From the IMG/VR virus record IMGVR_UViG_3300012746_000026, positions 1 to 26,132 of that record: a stretch of DNA of 26,132 nucleotides; one strand, given 5' to 3'. The notes beneath the pieces are model-generated. The model was not told the origin of the DNA. It saw only the letters and a program-made list of their open reading frames with translations, and searched no databases. This stretch comes from a virus. A program made the translations under genes and the position numbers. Shown here piece by piece: positions 653 through 4,939 of the stretch (position 1 is the first letter of the stretch; the number at the start of each line of letters is the position of its first letter).

Positions 653-813
653 GGGCCGCCGTCGTCGCGGCGCACCTCGCCGTCGCCGTCGTCGCGCTGC
701 AGGCCCTCGGGCCCGAGGCGCTCCTCTTCGCCGTCGCCGTCGCCTTGGGTGGCGTCGGTGTGGCCCACCCCGCAGGGCGTCGCGCCCTGCTTCGCATGGA
801 GATCCGCCAGTGA
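649..813 (+). CDS. Small hydrophobic (membrane) protein, 54 aa
   Basis: A 54-aa reading frame starting at GTG 649, which overlaps the TGA of the preceding gene (GTGA). Residues 2 to about 40 are almost all Ala, Val, Leu and Gly, enough for one or two membrane helices, followed by a basic tail ending in RMEIRQ. Its own TGA at 811-813 overlaps the GTG start of the ERF gene at 810, so it fits exactly between its neighbours with overlaps on both sides. That tight fit is the main reason to believe it is translated. Function is unknown. Small membrane proteins in early phage operons are common, but nothing specific can be assigned. Confidence 0.6.
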   Translation: MRAAVVAAHLAVAVVALQALGPEALLFAVAVALGGVGVAHPAGRRALLRMEIRQ

Positions 814-1730
814 CCCCAGAACCCAAGCCCAGCGCGCTCGCCGCCGCCGTCGTCGAGGCGATGAAGCGCGTCCGATACGTCAAGGAAACCGGGAAAAACG
901 ACTTCCACGGCTATAAGTACGCCAGCGATGAGGACTTCCTGATCCTCGTCCAGCCTGCCCTCGCCGACGTCGGCCTCTGCCTACTCCCGAGCGTCACCGA
1001 GGTGCGCACCCTGGAGCACAGTCCCGACAAAAAGGGAGCGCCGCGGTACCGGACCGAGCTGGTGCAGACTTGGGAGCTATTGCACGTCAGCGGGGAGTCG
1101 CGGATGCTCTCGGTCCCCGCGTGCGGCCTCGACTCCGAGGACAAAGGGACGTACAAGGCCCTCACCGGCGCCCTGAAATACCTCGTCCGGCACCTTCTGC
1201 TTATCCCCACCGGCGCCGACCCCGAGCGCGTCCGCGGTGACGAAAGCGAGCCCGCGGCACCGGGCCACGCGCCGATCAGCGTGCCGGCCGCTCGCAAGCC
1301 GGCGCAGCCCACCGGGCCGATCAACCGGCACCCGGGTGGTGTCGACCTCGACAGCTACATCCCGAGCGACAGCGGAAGGGCGCGCCTCGCCGCATGGGGC
1401 GGTGTCGAAGAGGTGCGCGATCTTGCCGCGTGGTTGGGTCTGTCCGAGGACCCCCTCGCCTGGGTCGACGATCCCGCCCGCCGTGACGCCCTCCTGCAGC
1501 GCCTGACTGACGCGCAGCCCGACGTCGAGGCGCTGCTCGACTGGTCGGACGCCTACCGCGCCGCGCTCGAGGCCGCTCGGGTGACGGCCGCCGCGGTCGA
1601 TCAGTGGGCCACCGGCACCGGCCGCCCGCGCGCCGGCCGCATGCCACGCGAGCAGCGCCTGAAGCTGCTTGAGTTTGTCAAAACCCCCGGCGGAATCGCC
1701 AAGATCACCGCTTTTCACGCCAGCAAGTAG
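810..1730 (+). CDS. erf: ERF-superfamily single-strand annealing protein (recombinase)
   Basis: A 306-aa protein starting at GTG 810, overlapping the stop of the upstream small gene; upstream in-frame ATGs lie inside the preceding genes. The N-terminal domain (about residues 8-145) has the ERF pattern: an early VEAMKRVRYVKETGKN segment, FHGYKYASDED, and the signature G-D-DKGTYKALTGALKY followed by LLLIPTGADPE. ERF proteins (founder: P22 Erf) anneal complementary single strands during phage recombination, genome circularisation and replication restart. Residues 150-190 are a Pro/Ala linker. The C-terminal half (DLAAWLGLSEDPLAWV and helical segments after it) is less conserved and may be a protein-contact domain. 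SSB and a 3'-5' exonuclease downstream fit a recombination module. Confidence 0.88.
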   Translation: MTPEPKPSALAAAVVEAMKRVRYVKETGKNDFHGYKYASDEDFLILVQPALADVGLCLLPSVTEVRTLEHSPDKKGAPRYRTELVQTWELLHVSGESRMLSVPACGLDSEDKGTYKALTGALKYLVRHLLLIPTGADPERVRGDESEPAAPGHAPISVPAARKPAQPTGPINRHPGGVDLDSYIPSDSGRARLAAWGGVEEVRDLAAWLGLSEDPLAWVDDPARRDALLQRLTDAQPDVEALLDWSDAYRAALEAARVTAAAVDQWATGTGRPRAGRMPREQRLKLLEFVKTPGGIAKITAFHASK

Positions 1731-1738
1731 GAAAGACC

Positions 1739-2020
1739 ATGATGACCAACACTGAGCACCCTTACACCCTCGGCGAAAACGTAATCGTTCGCACGGTGAC
1801 AATGTATTACACGGGCCGGATTGTCCGCGTATACCCTGGCGAACTGGTCCTAACTGACGCAGCCTGGATCGCCGACACCGGCCGCTGGTCCGCCGCGCTG
1901 GCGACCGGGAAACTGAACGAAATTGAGCCCTATCCGGGTGAAGGCCGGTGCATTGTCTCCCGCGCGGCGATCGTTGACGTGTCGCCGTGGTTGCACGCGC
2001 TCCCCCGCGACGTGCGCTAG
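1739..2020 (+). CDS. Small conserved phage protein, 93 aa
   Basis: A 93-aa protein with two adjacent ATG codons (1739 and 1742). AGGAAAG at 1729-1735 is a good ribosome-binding site and suits either. The sequence contains TVTMYYTGRIVRVYPGELV and LTDAAWIADTGRW. I recognise this as a small phage/prophage protein family with the motif TGR-V-ELVL-DAAWIADTGR. It looks like a compact beta-rich domain and has no known activity. GC is lower than in the flanking genes. It ends with TAG at 2018-2020. The same frame then stays open without another stop through the hexamer array and all of SSB to 2731 (see findings), though no start codon lies between this stop and the array. Confidence 0.78.
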   Translation: MMTNTEHPYTLGENVIVRTVTMYYTGRIVRVYPGELVLTDAAWIADTGRWSAALATGKLNEIEPYPGEGRCIVSRAAIVDVSPWLHALPRDVR

Positions 2021-2054
2021 TGGTGGCGCTGCGCGTGGGATGCGAGACTTTGGG

Positions 2055-2198
2055 GTCGCAGTCGCGGTCGCGGTCGCGGTCGCAGTCGCAGTCGCGGTCG
2101 TGGTCGGGGTCGCAGTCGCGGTCGCAGTCGCGGTCGTGGTCGCGGTCGTGGTCGTGGTCGGGGTCGCGGTCGCGGTCGCAGTCGCGGTCGTGGTCGGA
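2055..2198 (+). repeat. Tandem array of 24 GTCGNN hexamers
   Basis: Twenty-four consecutive 6-bp units run without interruption. The first four bases (GTCG) are identical in every unit. The last two bases vary: CG in 10 units, CA in 6, TG in 5, GG in 2, and GA in the final unit. A higher-order pattern is visible, since the order CA-CG-TG recurs at units 6-8, 12-14 and 21-23, twice followed directly by GG. All six reading frames are open across it. In frame with SSB it reads as Arg-Gly/Arg-Ser dipeptides. On the minus strand it reads as Asp-Arg/His, Thr-Ala or Arg-Pro. It may be a slippage product, a protein-binding array or a coding repeat. Confidence 0.9.
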
Positions 2199-2238
2199 AT
2201 GACCGCGCCGCACCTCTTCAAGCGCAGATCGCGGTCAT
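2199..2238. promoter_or_regulatory. 9-bp inverted repeat next to the hexamer array
   Basis: ATGACCGCG at 2199-2207 and its perfect reverse complement CGCGGTCAT at 2230-2238 are separated by 22 bp. The left arm begins directly where the hexamer array ends, and the right arm contains CGCGGTC, the same core as the array. It could be an operator for a dimeric regulator, a cruciform or an RNA stem controlling SSB expression. The sequence gives no way to choose between these. A 9-bp match within this distance in GC-rich sequence could also be chance. Confidence 0.4.
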
Positions 2239-2380
2239 GGGCCGCGCATGTCCCCTGGTAATGGTCGACGTGGGGAGGCCGGCACTACGCGATGCGCTCA
2301 AGTGCTTGCCCGCACCTGTACGCTGGATCGTGGTCCGGCGGGTTCCAAGTTTCAAACAGCAAAACAACAAGGGGAAAGCA

Positions 2381-2731
2381 ATGATCCACTGTACCATCGT
2401 CGGCCGTCTCGGAAAGGACGCCCGAGCCATCCCAGGCACCACAGGCGGCGCATCGTTTTCGGTCGCCTGCGACCACGGGTTCGGCGACAAGCGCATCACC
2501 ACCTGGGTCGACGTCACCGTATGGGGCAAACGCGGCGCCGGCATGCTAGAGCGCGGCTTGCTCCCGAAGGGGCAAGTTGTCGCGGTCCGCGGCGAGCTTT
2601 GGGCGGAAGACCGTGAGGGCAAAACTTGGGTCAAGGTCATTGCCGACGAGGTCGAGCTCTTGGGCGGCAAGCCCCAAGGCGCCGACGCACCCAAGACGCG
2701 GCCCGTCCCCTCCGATGATGTGCCGTTTTGA
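2381..2731 (+). CDS. ssb: Single-stranded DNA-binding protein (SSB)
   Basis: A 116-aa protein. The start at ATG 2381 is chosen because AAGGGGAAAG sits immediately upstream and the OB-fold begins there with MIHCTIVGRLGKDA, as in other SSBs; an in-frame ATG at 2237 would add an unrelated leader. Further hallmarks are the SFSVACDHGF strand, TTWVDVTVWGKRG, LLPKGQVVAVRGEL and TWVKVIADEVELLGG. The C-terminus ends SDDVPF, the acidic tip that recruits partner proteins in bacterial SSBs (usual form DDDIPF). It is shorter than host SSBs (about 150-180 aa) because the linker is brief. It coats and protects ssDNA and probably cooperates with the ERF annealing protein. The stop overlaps the next start (TGATG). 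Confidence 0.93.
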   Translation: MIHCTIVGRLGKDARAIPGTTGGASFSVACDHGFGDKRITTWVDVTVWGKRGAGMLERGLLPKGQVVAVRGELWAEDREGKTWVKVIADEVELLGGKPQGADAPKTRPVPSDDVPF

Positions 2732-3744
2732 TGCGCGACGCGATGTTGACAGCCCGCTCCGCGGGTGAGGAGACGCACCAGGCGGCGGCCGATCGCCTTG
2801 ACGCGGCGATCCGTATGCGCCTCGAATGGCGGGACCGCTGGGATCTCGACGCCATCGCGCGATCCGTCGAAGCACATCGCGCGGGCGTTTTGACTTCGCT
2901 GCGTCGCCTGCAGCTGGCCGGGGCGTGCGTTCCGGTCGGCGATGTGTGGTGGTCCGCCGAGGCGTTTCGCCGTCAGTTTGGCGAGCCGCCTCCGCCGCCG
3001 CCGCGTCACGTCGCCGAGATCCCCGCCCCTCCCGGGCGACGGAAGCTCACCACGCCAGCCGCCGCCGCGGACCCGGCACCGACGACATGGCCGCCGGCAC
3101 CGCCGCGACCGTCGACACCGTCGACGCCGTCGACACCAGCACCGGAACGGCCGACACCGCCACCGGCACCAAAGCCGGAGCCACAGCCGACCGCACCGCC
3201 GTTGACCGACGGGCCGCCAGATCCTGGACTGGGTCGCCGTATCGTCGCCTGGGTGTTGGACCAGCCCGAGCCGGTGGCGATCGCCCAGATTGCCACCGCC
3301 CTCAGCGTCAGCCGCGACCGCGTCGCCCGTGAGATTGCACGGCCTTCAGCGGCGAGGATGCTGGGTAAAAGCGGCACGAAGCGAAACCCTTGGGATCCGG
3401 CGTCGGGCTTCCGCTACTGGCGACCGACGCCCGAAGACCTGCCCGCGGCCGTCCCGCTCGCCGAGGCGCAAGCCGAGATCAAGCGGGGCACCCGCCACCT
3501 CGTCGCCGGGACCGCGGATCCGGCGATGCTGGCCGCGATCGCCCGCCACCCAGGGCAGGGCGTTGACTGCTTGCCGACGTCGATCGACTGCTGGTGGGCG
3601 ACTGACCACCACGGCGATCTGCGTCTCCGAGTGCAGTTGTCGTCTCCGAACACCCCCTCGACTGCAGTCCGTATCGTGGCGCAGGTGCCGATCTTGGTGC
3701 CGCGCACAGTCGTAGACCTTACCATTCGCGAGGATCAAGCATGA
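2731..3744 (+). CDS. Unrecognised protein with two helix-turn-helix regions and a Pro-rich linker
   Basis: A 337-aa protein starting at ATG 2731, which shares a base with the SSB stop (TGATG); a TTG at 2728 is also possible. Residues about 30-85 look like a winged helix (WDLDAIARSVEAHRAGVL then LRRLQLAGA and a WWSAEAF wing). Residues about 88-160 are Pro/Ala/Thr-rich low complexity containing a 9-bp DNA repeat (around 3109-3137) that encodes ST-P repeats. A second winged-helix-like segment follows (RIVAWVLDQPEPVAIAQIA, then ALSVSRDRVAREIA). The C-terminal 120 residues are not recognised. Two DNA-binding-like modules beside SSB suggest a role in replication initiation, regulation or helicase loading, but no family match can be claimed. 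Confidence 0.72.
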   Translation: MRDAMLTARSAGEETHQAAADRLDAAIRMRLEWRDRWDLDAIARSVEAHRAGVLTSLRRLQLAGACVPVGDVWWSAEAFRRQFGEPPPPPPRHVAEIPAPPGRRKLTTPAAAADPAPTTWPPAPPRPSTPSTPSTPAPERPTPPPAPKPEPQPTAPPLTDGPPDPGLGRRIVAWVLDQPEPVAIAQIATALSVSRDRVAREIARPSAARMLGKSGTKRNPWDPASGFRYWRPTPEDLPAAVPLAEAQAEIKRGTRHLVAGTADPAMLAAIARHPGQGVDCLPTSIDCWWATDHHGDLRLRVQLSSPNTPSTAVRIVAQVPILVPRTVVDLTIREDQA

Positions 3745-4207: not shown

Positions 4208-4939
4208 GTGAGCACCATCTATCTCGACATCGAAACCGTCCCCGCCGACGCACTACCCGGGCAGACCATGCCCCCGGCCCGGTGGATCTTGCGCGCCCCG
4301 GACGAGGTCAAACGCTTAAAAGCCGACACGGACGCCGAGTTCGCCACGAAGTGCGTCGAATGGGCCCGCGAGCAGTGGGGCAAGGAGAGTCTTGATCCAG
4401 TCGGCCGCGCGCCGGCGATCGGCGGTCGCGTGCTCGCCGTTGGCCTTGCCTCGGGTGATGGCCACCCCACGTTCTGGGTCAACGACGAAGAGGGCCGCGT
4501 TCTGGCCGGGCTTGAGCATTACCTTGACAAGCACTGCGGACGCCACTGCTCGATCGTTGGCCACAATATCCGAGGGTTTGACGCCCCTTTCCTGGCCGCC
4601 CGCGCGCTGCGTCACCCGGAGAGGTACCCCGCCATTCTGCGCGCCTTCCTTCCTCGCGACCGCTGGGGCCCCGGGCCGCATGTCGTCGACACGATGGCCC
4701 TGCTGCCCGTGACCAGCTACGGCGGGCGCCCGACCGGAACCGCCCGGCTTAGCGACTGGGTGACGTACCTTGACGAGGCGATCGCCGAGGACCAGATCGA
4801 CGGCTCCCAGGTGCTAGGCCGATACCTCGCCGGCGACCTGGGGGCGATCCTGGATCATCTCGTCGCCGACGTCCAGGAGGTGCGCACCTTGCACCAGCGC
4901 CTGACGGCCGCAAAGCCCTACGGCCGCCAGGTCGAGTAG
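4208..4939 (+). CDS. DEDD-superfamily 3'-5' exonuclease (PolB-exonuclease-like)
   Basis: A 243-aa protein starting at GTG 4208 with a weak AGGA at 4198-4201. Exo I is YLDIETVP (D7, E9). Exo II is VGHNIRGFDAPFLAARA (N120, D125). The C-terminal HLVADVQEV (H217, D221) sits where Exo III is expected; the spacing resembles the YCxxD form of this motif, with His in place of Tyr. The layout fits the stand-alone 3'-5' exonuclease family related to family-B polymerase proofreading domains (often named DNA_pol_B_exo2). Such enzymes remove nucleotides from 3' ends using two metal ions. With ERF and SSB upstream it could produce or trim ends for annealing. The last 22 bases overlap the endolysin gene on the opposite strand. 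Confidence 0.85.
   Translation: MSTIYLDIETVPADALPGQTMPPARWILRAPDEVKRLKADTDAEFATKCVEWAREQWGKESLDPVGRAPAIGGRVLAVGLASGDGHPTFWVNDEEGRVLAGLEHYLDKHCGRHCSIVGHNIRGFDAPFLAARALRHPERYPAILRAFLPRDRWGPGPHVVDTMALLPVTSYGGRPTGTARLSDWVTYLDEAIAEDQIDGSQVLGRYLAGDLGAILDHLVADVQEVRTLHQRLTAAKPYGRQVE

Follow-up and report, generated by a model that had tools for sequence, protein, structure and literature searches.

A hexamer array in a metagenomic phage reads as a Ser-X repeat gene paired with a gene for a predicted Sm-like protein

The repeat locus and its surroundings

The window (the whole stretch of viral DNA that we analyzed, 26,132 bases) contains a hexamer array between a 93-aa gene and a gene for a single-stranded DNA-binding protein (SSB) (Table 1). 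Tandem Repeats Finder (TRF) resolved the array (GTCGNN/GGTCGC) into 23.8 copies with 86% matches and a score of 195, by a wide margin the strongest tandem array in the window. The pattern (GTCGNN)3GTCG gave 21 overlapping exact matches on the + strand against none for the reversed control pattern, and the array described in the original prediction is thus real. That prediction had placed the coding capacity of the array in the frame common to the 93-aa gene and ssb. We confirmed from the sequence that this frame stays open between 2021 and 2731 and gives a Gly/Ser-Arg reading. It had also held that no start codon precedes the array, so that readthrough of the TAG, a frameshift, or a broken fusion would be needed, but the search for starts had covered only the Gly-Arg frame. 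A GTG at 2020-2022 overlaps the stop codon of the 93-aa gene (TAGTG), with a second GTG at 2023, and the frame that it opens is uninterrupted across the entire array to a TGA at 2200-2202, which removes the need for such events. The predicted product, MVALRVGCETLGSQSRSRSRSQSQSRSWSGSQSRSQSRSWSRSWSWSGSRSRSQSRSWSE, begins with a short leader, after which Ser alternates with Arg, Gln, Trp, or Gly. We call it the Ser-X (SX) protein and the 93-aa gene its partner. The frame first proposed was therefore one base off, and the encoded residues are Ser-Arg/Gly/Trp/Gln rather than Gly-Arg/Ser-Arg. That the Gly-Arg frame coincides with that of the 93-aa gene is a consequence of the overlapping -1 phase in which the downstream gene begins. 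The array is almost certainly the body of a protein-coding SX gene. The SX protein of the window is small, carries a net charge of +9, and has no match above the cut-off in Pfam; its array is atypical in having 6 Gln units.

Table 1. Features of the cassette region and its neighbors in the window
Feature	Position	Strand	Basis or remark
Erf-like single-strand annealing protein, neighbor	810..1730	+	PF04404, E 2e-10; phrog_155, E 6e-21
Partner gene, 93 aa, class 1, predicted Sm/LSm-like fold	1739..2020	+	ORF; IMG/VR relatives; AlphaFold2; Foldseek
SX gene, 60-aa Ser-[Arg/Gln/Trp/Gly] repeat protein	2020..2202	+	Frame, start, and leader kept in relatives; codon evidence
SX leader, MVALRVGCETLG	2020..2055	+	Resembles MVTLRAG.., MIALRAG.., and MNxA[IV]LRxG[FY][DE] leaders of class-1 relatives
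Hexamer array GTCGNN	2054..2196	+	Coding frame: TCG alternating with CGG (10), CAG (6), TGG (5), GGG (3)
Possible short second SX-type gene, MTAPHLFKRRSRSWAAHVPW	2199..2261	+	ATGA overlap with SX stop; weak, read from sequence
Spacer before ssb	2262..2380	+	Cassette-to-spacer stretch also between two tandem cassettes in L022
SSB, neighbor outside the conserved pair	2381..2731	+	PF00436, E 8e-8; phrog_44, E 1e-16

The position of the cassette between the Erf-like annealing protein and SSB constitutes a recombination setting. The nearest relative, locus L022 (positions 1 to 1257), contains two copies of the Sm-like partner, one of them truncated where the contig ends, together with four SX ORFs ahead of SSB. 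Positions 1891-2386 of the window match L022 1-525 with 76% identity (blastn), and therefore the window appears to hold one cassette, against a tandem arrangement in L022. In L022, the second Sm-like gene is preceded by the spacer that in the window leads up to ssb. Tandem SX genes with the same ATGA overlap as the candidate second gene of the window are present in L022 and in other loci. Across phages, no neighborhood was conserved beyond the pair itself, the neighbors being varied. The window had no DNA similarity to phage records, no match to Rfam, and no match in a terminase search, and a promoter/terminator scan around the cassette yielded nothing above chance. Elsewhere in the window, an imperfect 18-bp GTCGAC-type repeat (3090-3137) encodes a Pro/Thr/Ser-rich linker in a 338-aa ORF (2728-3744), and an ORF at 4208-4939 weakly resembles PolB-type exonuclease domains (phrog_403, E 3e-4; PF10108, E 0.007, below the cut-off).

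A fast-changing, protein-coding repeat gene coupled to a gene of predicted Sm-like fold

Relatives of the 93-aa partner were recovered from IMG/VR contigs (18 close ones and 268 stretches in a wider search), from five MAG contigs (Ilumatobacter, Bathyarchaeota, Schlesneria, Phycisphaeraceae, and Deltaproteobacteria), and from a single phage record, MW202573. A repeat-pattern scan of viral contigs also detected arrays that lacked this family and had basic leaders such as MRSMKQKYR. The gene upstream of these arrays is a diverged homologue of the partner (YIYTGKLVGVNxxCVxLEDAxIVYETG), which we termed class 2, and the profiles of the two classes are homologous (hhalign probability 96.8%, E 2e-10). 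Class 2 comprises 350 matching stretches and one phage record, MW202825; the combination of a class-2 partner with a basic-leader SX gene (MRxxKQKYR-SxS) was seen in loci L128, L138, L177, L190, L193, L217, L237, and L368-L447. A plasmid search returned no partner of either class. MW202825 (L448, positions 3001-3437) is a circular GenBank record that bears the flag UNVERIFIED; it leaves the Sm-like gene and the adjacent SX gene unannotated and lists the subsequent SX ORF as a hypothetical protein. The repeat-pattern scan also returned GGAGC arrays, mostly pure SRSRSR or SWSWSW without a partner; we took these as ordinary linkers or tandem repeats and excluded them as cassettes.

We then evaluated how often the two genes occur together. 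Only loci fetched by protein homology and with at least 90 nt downstream were counted, because a fetch by repeat pattern itself selects for the presence of an array. An SX gene lay directly downstream of 115 of the 125 partners (68/74 in class 1 and 47/51 in class 2), and in 4 of the 10 exceptions it lay upstream. SX-type stretches elsewhere in the same loci set the expectation at ∼0.02 per interval of the size examined and were mostly further SX genes. The array hexamers beside the relatives vary (GGTCGN, GGAGCN, GGTCTN, GGTCAN, and GGACGN), and all of these arrays read Ser-X, or Thr-X for GGACGN, from a start codon located at the partner's stop or close to it. The leaders of class-1 relatives include MNAAILREGFDRS, MNQAILRAGFDGS, and MVTLRAGFW, and the leader type tracks the class of the partner, hydrophobic (MNxAILRxG) with class 1 and basic (MRxxKQKYR) with class 2. 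The number of SX ORFs per locus reaches 13 to 14 (14 in L103 and 13 in L418); loci L103, L418, L038, L126, and L111 carry 6 to 14 tandem SX ORFs, and copies within a locus have similar leaders. Repeats of a different kind were also observed. In L026/L055 (3700-6400), a very long GTCG-rich array with triplet-type units (GTCGTC, GTCGGC) flanks the partner gene on both sides and reads Ser-rich with Asp, Glu, and Ala, unlike the R/G/W alphabet. In L029/L069, a Thr-Gly-reading array upstream of an Sm-like gene at the contig end suggests another cassette, cut by that end.

Between loci whose partner genes are 97 to 98% identical, the arrays can diverge over their whole extent, in unit order as well as in length (L080/L084, L370/L372, and L438/L439). 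A nonfunctional microsatellite expansion or an assembly artefact is one rival explanation of the arrays. Contigs often end inside an array (of 133 distinct partners, 19 have the end of their stretch within 250 nt and 5 at 251 to 500 nt), so that single arrays may be misassembled in length. Yet the linkage in 115 independent loci, the annotation of an SX ORF in MW202573, a circular complete record, and the constancy of residue composition across changes of codon and GC content (see below) make this explanation scarcely credible.

Comparison of the three frames shows which one is coded. A start codon after the partner's stop was found for the SX frame in 195 of 202 arrays, compared with 19 for the +1 (Gly-Arg) frame and 20 for the +2 frame. 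In the same 202 arrays, a start overlapping the partner's stop belonged to the SX frame in 133 cases, to the +1 frame in none, and to the +2 frame in one. Over 203 arrays (11,045 codons), 55 stops interrupt the +1 frame and 323 the +2 frame; the SX frame has zero stops by construction, and this was left out as evidence. Whichever of the three phases it occupies relative to the partner, the SX frame retains a start of its own. Read onward past its stop, the partner's frame is open in 90 of 202 arrays and closed in 112, and it is also closed in 67 and open in 49 of the 116 loci that share the overlapping phase of the window. A Gly-Arg tail joined to the 93-aa protein or to SSB through stop readthrough, a frameshift, or a fusion since broken agrees with the open frame at 2021-2731 in the window, but the original prediction had named stops in this frame in relatives as evidence against it, and those 112 related loci are interrupted. 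It had also suggested looking for relatives of the 93-aa protein with RG-rich tails, and among 231 distinct partner genes we saw no fusion to the repeat. Since the SX frame has a start codon of its own, the Gly-Arg model retains next to no probability, being refuted by the comparative data. The broader expectation of protein-level selection on an Arg-rich, plausibly nucleic-acid-binding product of the + strand, beside nucleic acid genes, has held up, and the frame, the residues, and the mechanism proposed with it have not.

Selection on residues and turnover of codons

We then analyzed the composition of the arrays, treating loci as independent in the residue and codon counts. Ser is the most constant residue (86%), and its majority codon per array is TCG in 126 arrays, AGC in 32, TCT in 30, TCA in 13, and AGT in one, with ACG (Thr) in one further array. 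The X positions are 31% Arg, 30% Gly, and 26.5% Trp, and nearly all of their codons are NGG. The R:G:W ratio is 0.36:0.34:0.30 in the 55 arrays that use only AGG and 0.36:0.33:0.31 in the 74 that use only CGG; among the protein-fetched loci alone, R, G, and W also do not differ significantly between AGG and CGG arrays. The shares of A and C anticorrelate (rho -0.84), and the variance of their sum is 0.21 of the summed variances, the lowest among pairs of bases. GC content correlates with the share of CGG (rho 0.45) and hardly with the shares of R (0.01) or W (0.06). Synonymous diversity is 0.07 to 0.10 within arrays and 0.50 to 0.60 between arrays, and R/G/W diversity within arrays is 0.63 of a maximum of 0.67, with all three residues present in 154 of 161 arrays. 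Within an array, each residue is mostly written with one hexamer. We infer that drift during unit turnover leaves each array with a single synonymous codon and that selection retains R, G, and W.

These data bear on a DNA-level element, such as a set of iterons, a hotspot of recombination, or some other site, in which the open frame would be incidental. The uniform 6-bp units beside the Erf and SSB genes, the X codons that are almost only NGG, and the unit spacing that is almost always 6 are what such an element would look like, and from the predominance of NGG it follows that some DNA-level homogenization is also at work. However, the hexamer letters differ completely between phages while Ser/Thr-X is kept, the start codon and the leader are conserved, R:G:W stays constant while the Arg codon tracks GC, and breaks in the spacing remain multiples of 3 in 3,724 of 3,751 cases, which together make a DNA element very unlikely. 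An iteron or replication-origin repeat in particular was rejected, as the related phages share no conserved DNA motif and the letters change while the encoded pattern stays.

The regular Ser or Thr at every second position behind a leader, with Ser so constant, could instead mark a modification platform, either for phosphorylation or as a RiPP-like core, for which the partner would recruit the enzyme. The surroundings of the cassette show no recurrent kinase or modifying enzyme, though, and Ala is tolerated at Ser positions in L029, so we consider this quite improbable.

The order of the units is near random, identical neighbors being slightly fewer than in shuffles (1,335 versus 1,413 ± 29). 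Single-unit slippage as the main driver of array change is unsupported, as there is no excess of identical neighbors. A long shot is that the sequence of S-R, S-G, and S-W units encodes recognition information and undergoes active rewriting, a reading prompted by this near-random order, the use of mostly one hexamer for each residue, and the wholly different arrays beside near-identical partner genes; if true, a diversified, modular recognition or decoy system would be attached to the phage Sm-like protein.

Predicted fold of the partner and possible function of the pair

The 93-aa protein of the window was assigned to no family in Pfam (E ≤ 1), PHROGs, or NCBIfam, and class-2 proteins had no Pfam match at E ≤ 10 and no significant match in PHROGs; the Pfam LSM profile was among those without a match at these thresholds. 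AlphaFold2 modeled class 1 with a pLDDT of 95.2 and a pTM of 0.85 (72 sequences) and class 2 with a pLDDT of 93.0 (21 sequences). In Foldseek searches of the PDB, the leading matches of both models were mostly Sm/LSm proteins (probability 1.00), and the best structural neighbors of both families are Sm/LSm/Hfq proteins, for example, AF-Sm1 (1i5l), SmF, Lsm1-8, and SmAP. The best E values (5e-3 and 1.2e-3) are modest to borderline, and therefore the Sm-like assignment is strong yet predicted. By prediction, both models form the bent five-stranded beta barrel that defines the Sm fold. The consensus contains an Sm1-like YTGRLxxVxxxELVLxDA and an Sm2-like GRGAIVD motif, although the spacing differs and the Arg is not invariant. 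Compared with classical Sm/LSm/Hfq proteins, the partners keep the Sm2 RG motif only in part, and the N-terminal helix is absent from the class-1 model and reduced to 3 residues in class 2. Viral models of similar fold include proteins named DUF6948 and "Sm-like domain"; the DUF6948 phage proteins (BFVD A0A6J5MA76 and A0A6J5KRP8) resemble the partners in predicted fold but gave no sequence match in Pfam scans of the window or of class-2 proteins. Going by these models, the cassette very probably consists of an SX gene and a partner of Sm-like fold.

The strongest of the rival explanations is that the SX protein is a toxic or antimicrobial Arg/Trp-rich peptide, acting in host takeover, lysis, or antidefense, and that the Sm-like protein is its regulator or neutralizer in a translationally coupled pair. 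A small, cationic, Trp-rich, and fast-changing product, sometimes present in many tandem copies, would suit such a role, but the fold predicted for the partner suggests a connection with nucleic acid, and we judge a toxic peptide unlikely.

The best explanation overall, which we hold to be fairly probable, is a two-gene phage cassette made of an Sm-like protein and an SX tail provided in trans. We tentatively propose the following mechanism, the less assured part of this explanation. The product of the first gene is predicted to have the LSm/Hfq fold, and ribosomes finishing that gene would restart at the overlapping GTG to translate the SX gene. The Sm-like protein, probably assembled into a ring, would bind RNA or single-stranded DNA, and the SX protein may dock on it through its leader, whose type matches the class of the partner. 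The SX protein would then serve as a flexible tail in which Arg grips phosphates, Trp stacks on bases, and Ser and Gly act as spacers. The outcome may be multivalent nucleic acid binding, possibly with local condensation, that would play a role in infection.

Low-complexity tails that work with an Sm core are known from the RG tails of Sm B/D1/D3. The C-terminal tail of Hfq is likewise a low-complexity tail working with the Sm core (PMC5606850). The tail described here differs from both in being encoded by its own gene and in using a Ser-[R/G/W] alphabet. The closest precedent that we found is that of the Borg Sm ribonucleoproteins, which carry N-terminal amino acid tandem repeats with units of 4, 8, 12, or 17 aa (Schoelmerich et al. 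2023, PMC9879509). As in the phages, an Sm-like protein of a mobile element is combined with rapidly evolving, disordered amino acid tandem repeats; unlike in the phages, where a separate downstream gene encodes a 2-residue Ser-X unit, the Borg repeats are fused to the N terminus of the Sm protein, and the repeat unit is unrelated. Perfect repeats fused to an Sm protein, the hallmark of the Borg proteins, were found in none of the 231 distinct partners. Eukaryotic SR/RS-repeat proteins also share with SX proteins an alternating Ser-Arg low-complexity sequence, but SX proteins are phage encoded, have about one-third each of Arg, Gly, and Trp at X, possess a leader peptide, and lack an RRM, with no sequence homology seen.

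Among open-licence papers, we found no description of the Sm-like/repeat-peptide pair, which appears to be undescribed, although a search of this scope does not prove novelty. It is absent from the family libraries searched and nearly absent from isolate collections (one phage record per class and no plasmids). At least several hundred metagenomic phages nevertheless carry a relative of the partner (268 plus 350 stretches), with an SX gene immediately downstream in about 9 of 10 of those examined. Repeat arrays dismissed as noncoding in phage contigs can thus be genes, and some contig breaks are explained. The maintenance of Arg, Gly, and Trp at about one-third each despite complete codon replacement is an exceptionally clean example from nature of selection on low-complexity composition, and SX proteins lend themselves to sticker-and-spacer studies as a simple system. 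Should the prediction of an Sm-like fold be borne out, phages would employ Sm-type proteins whose tails are provided in trans.
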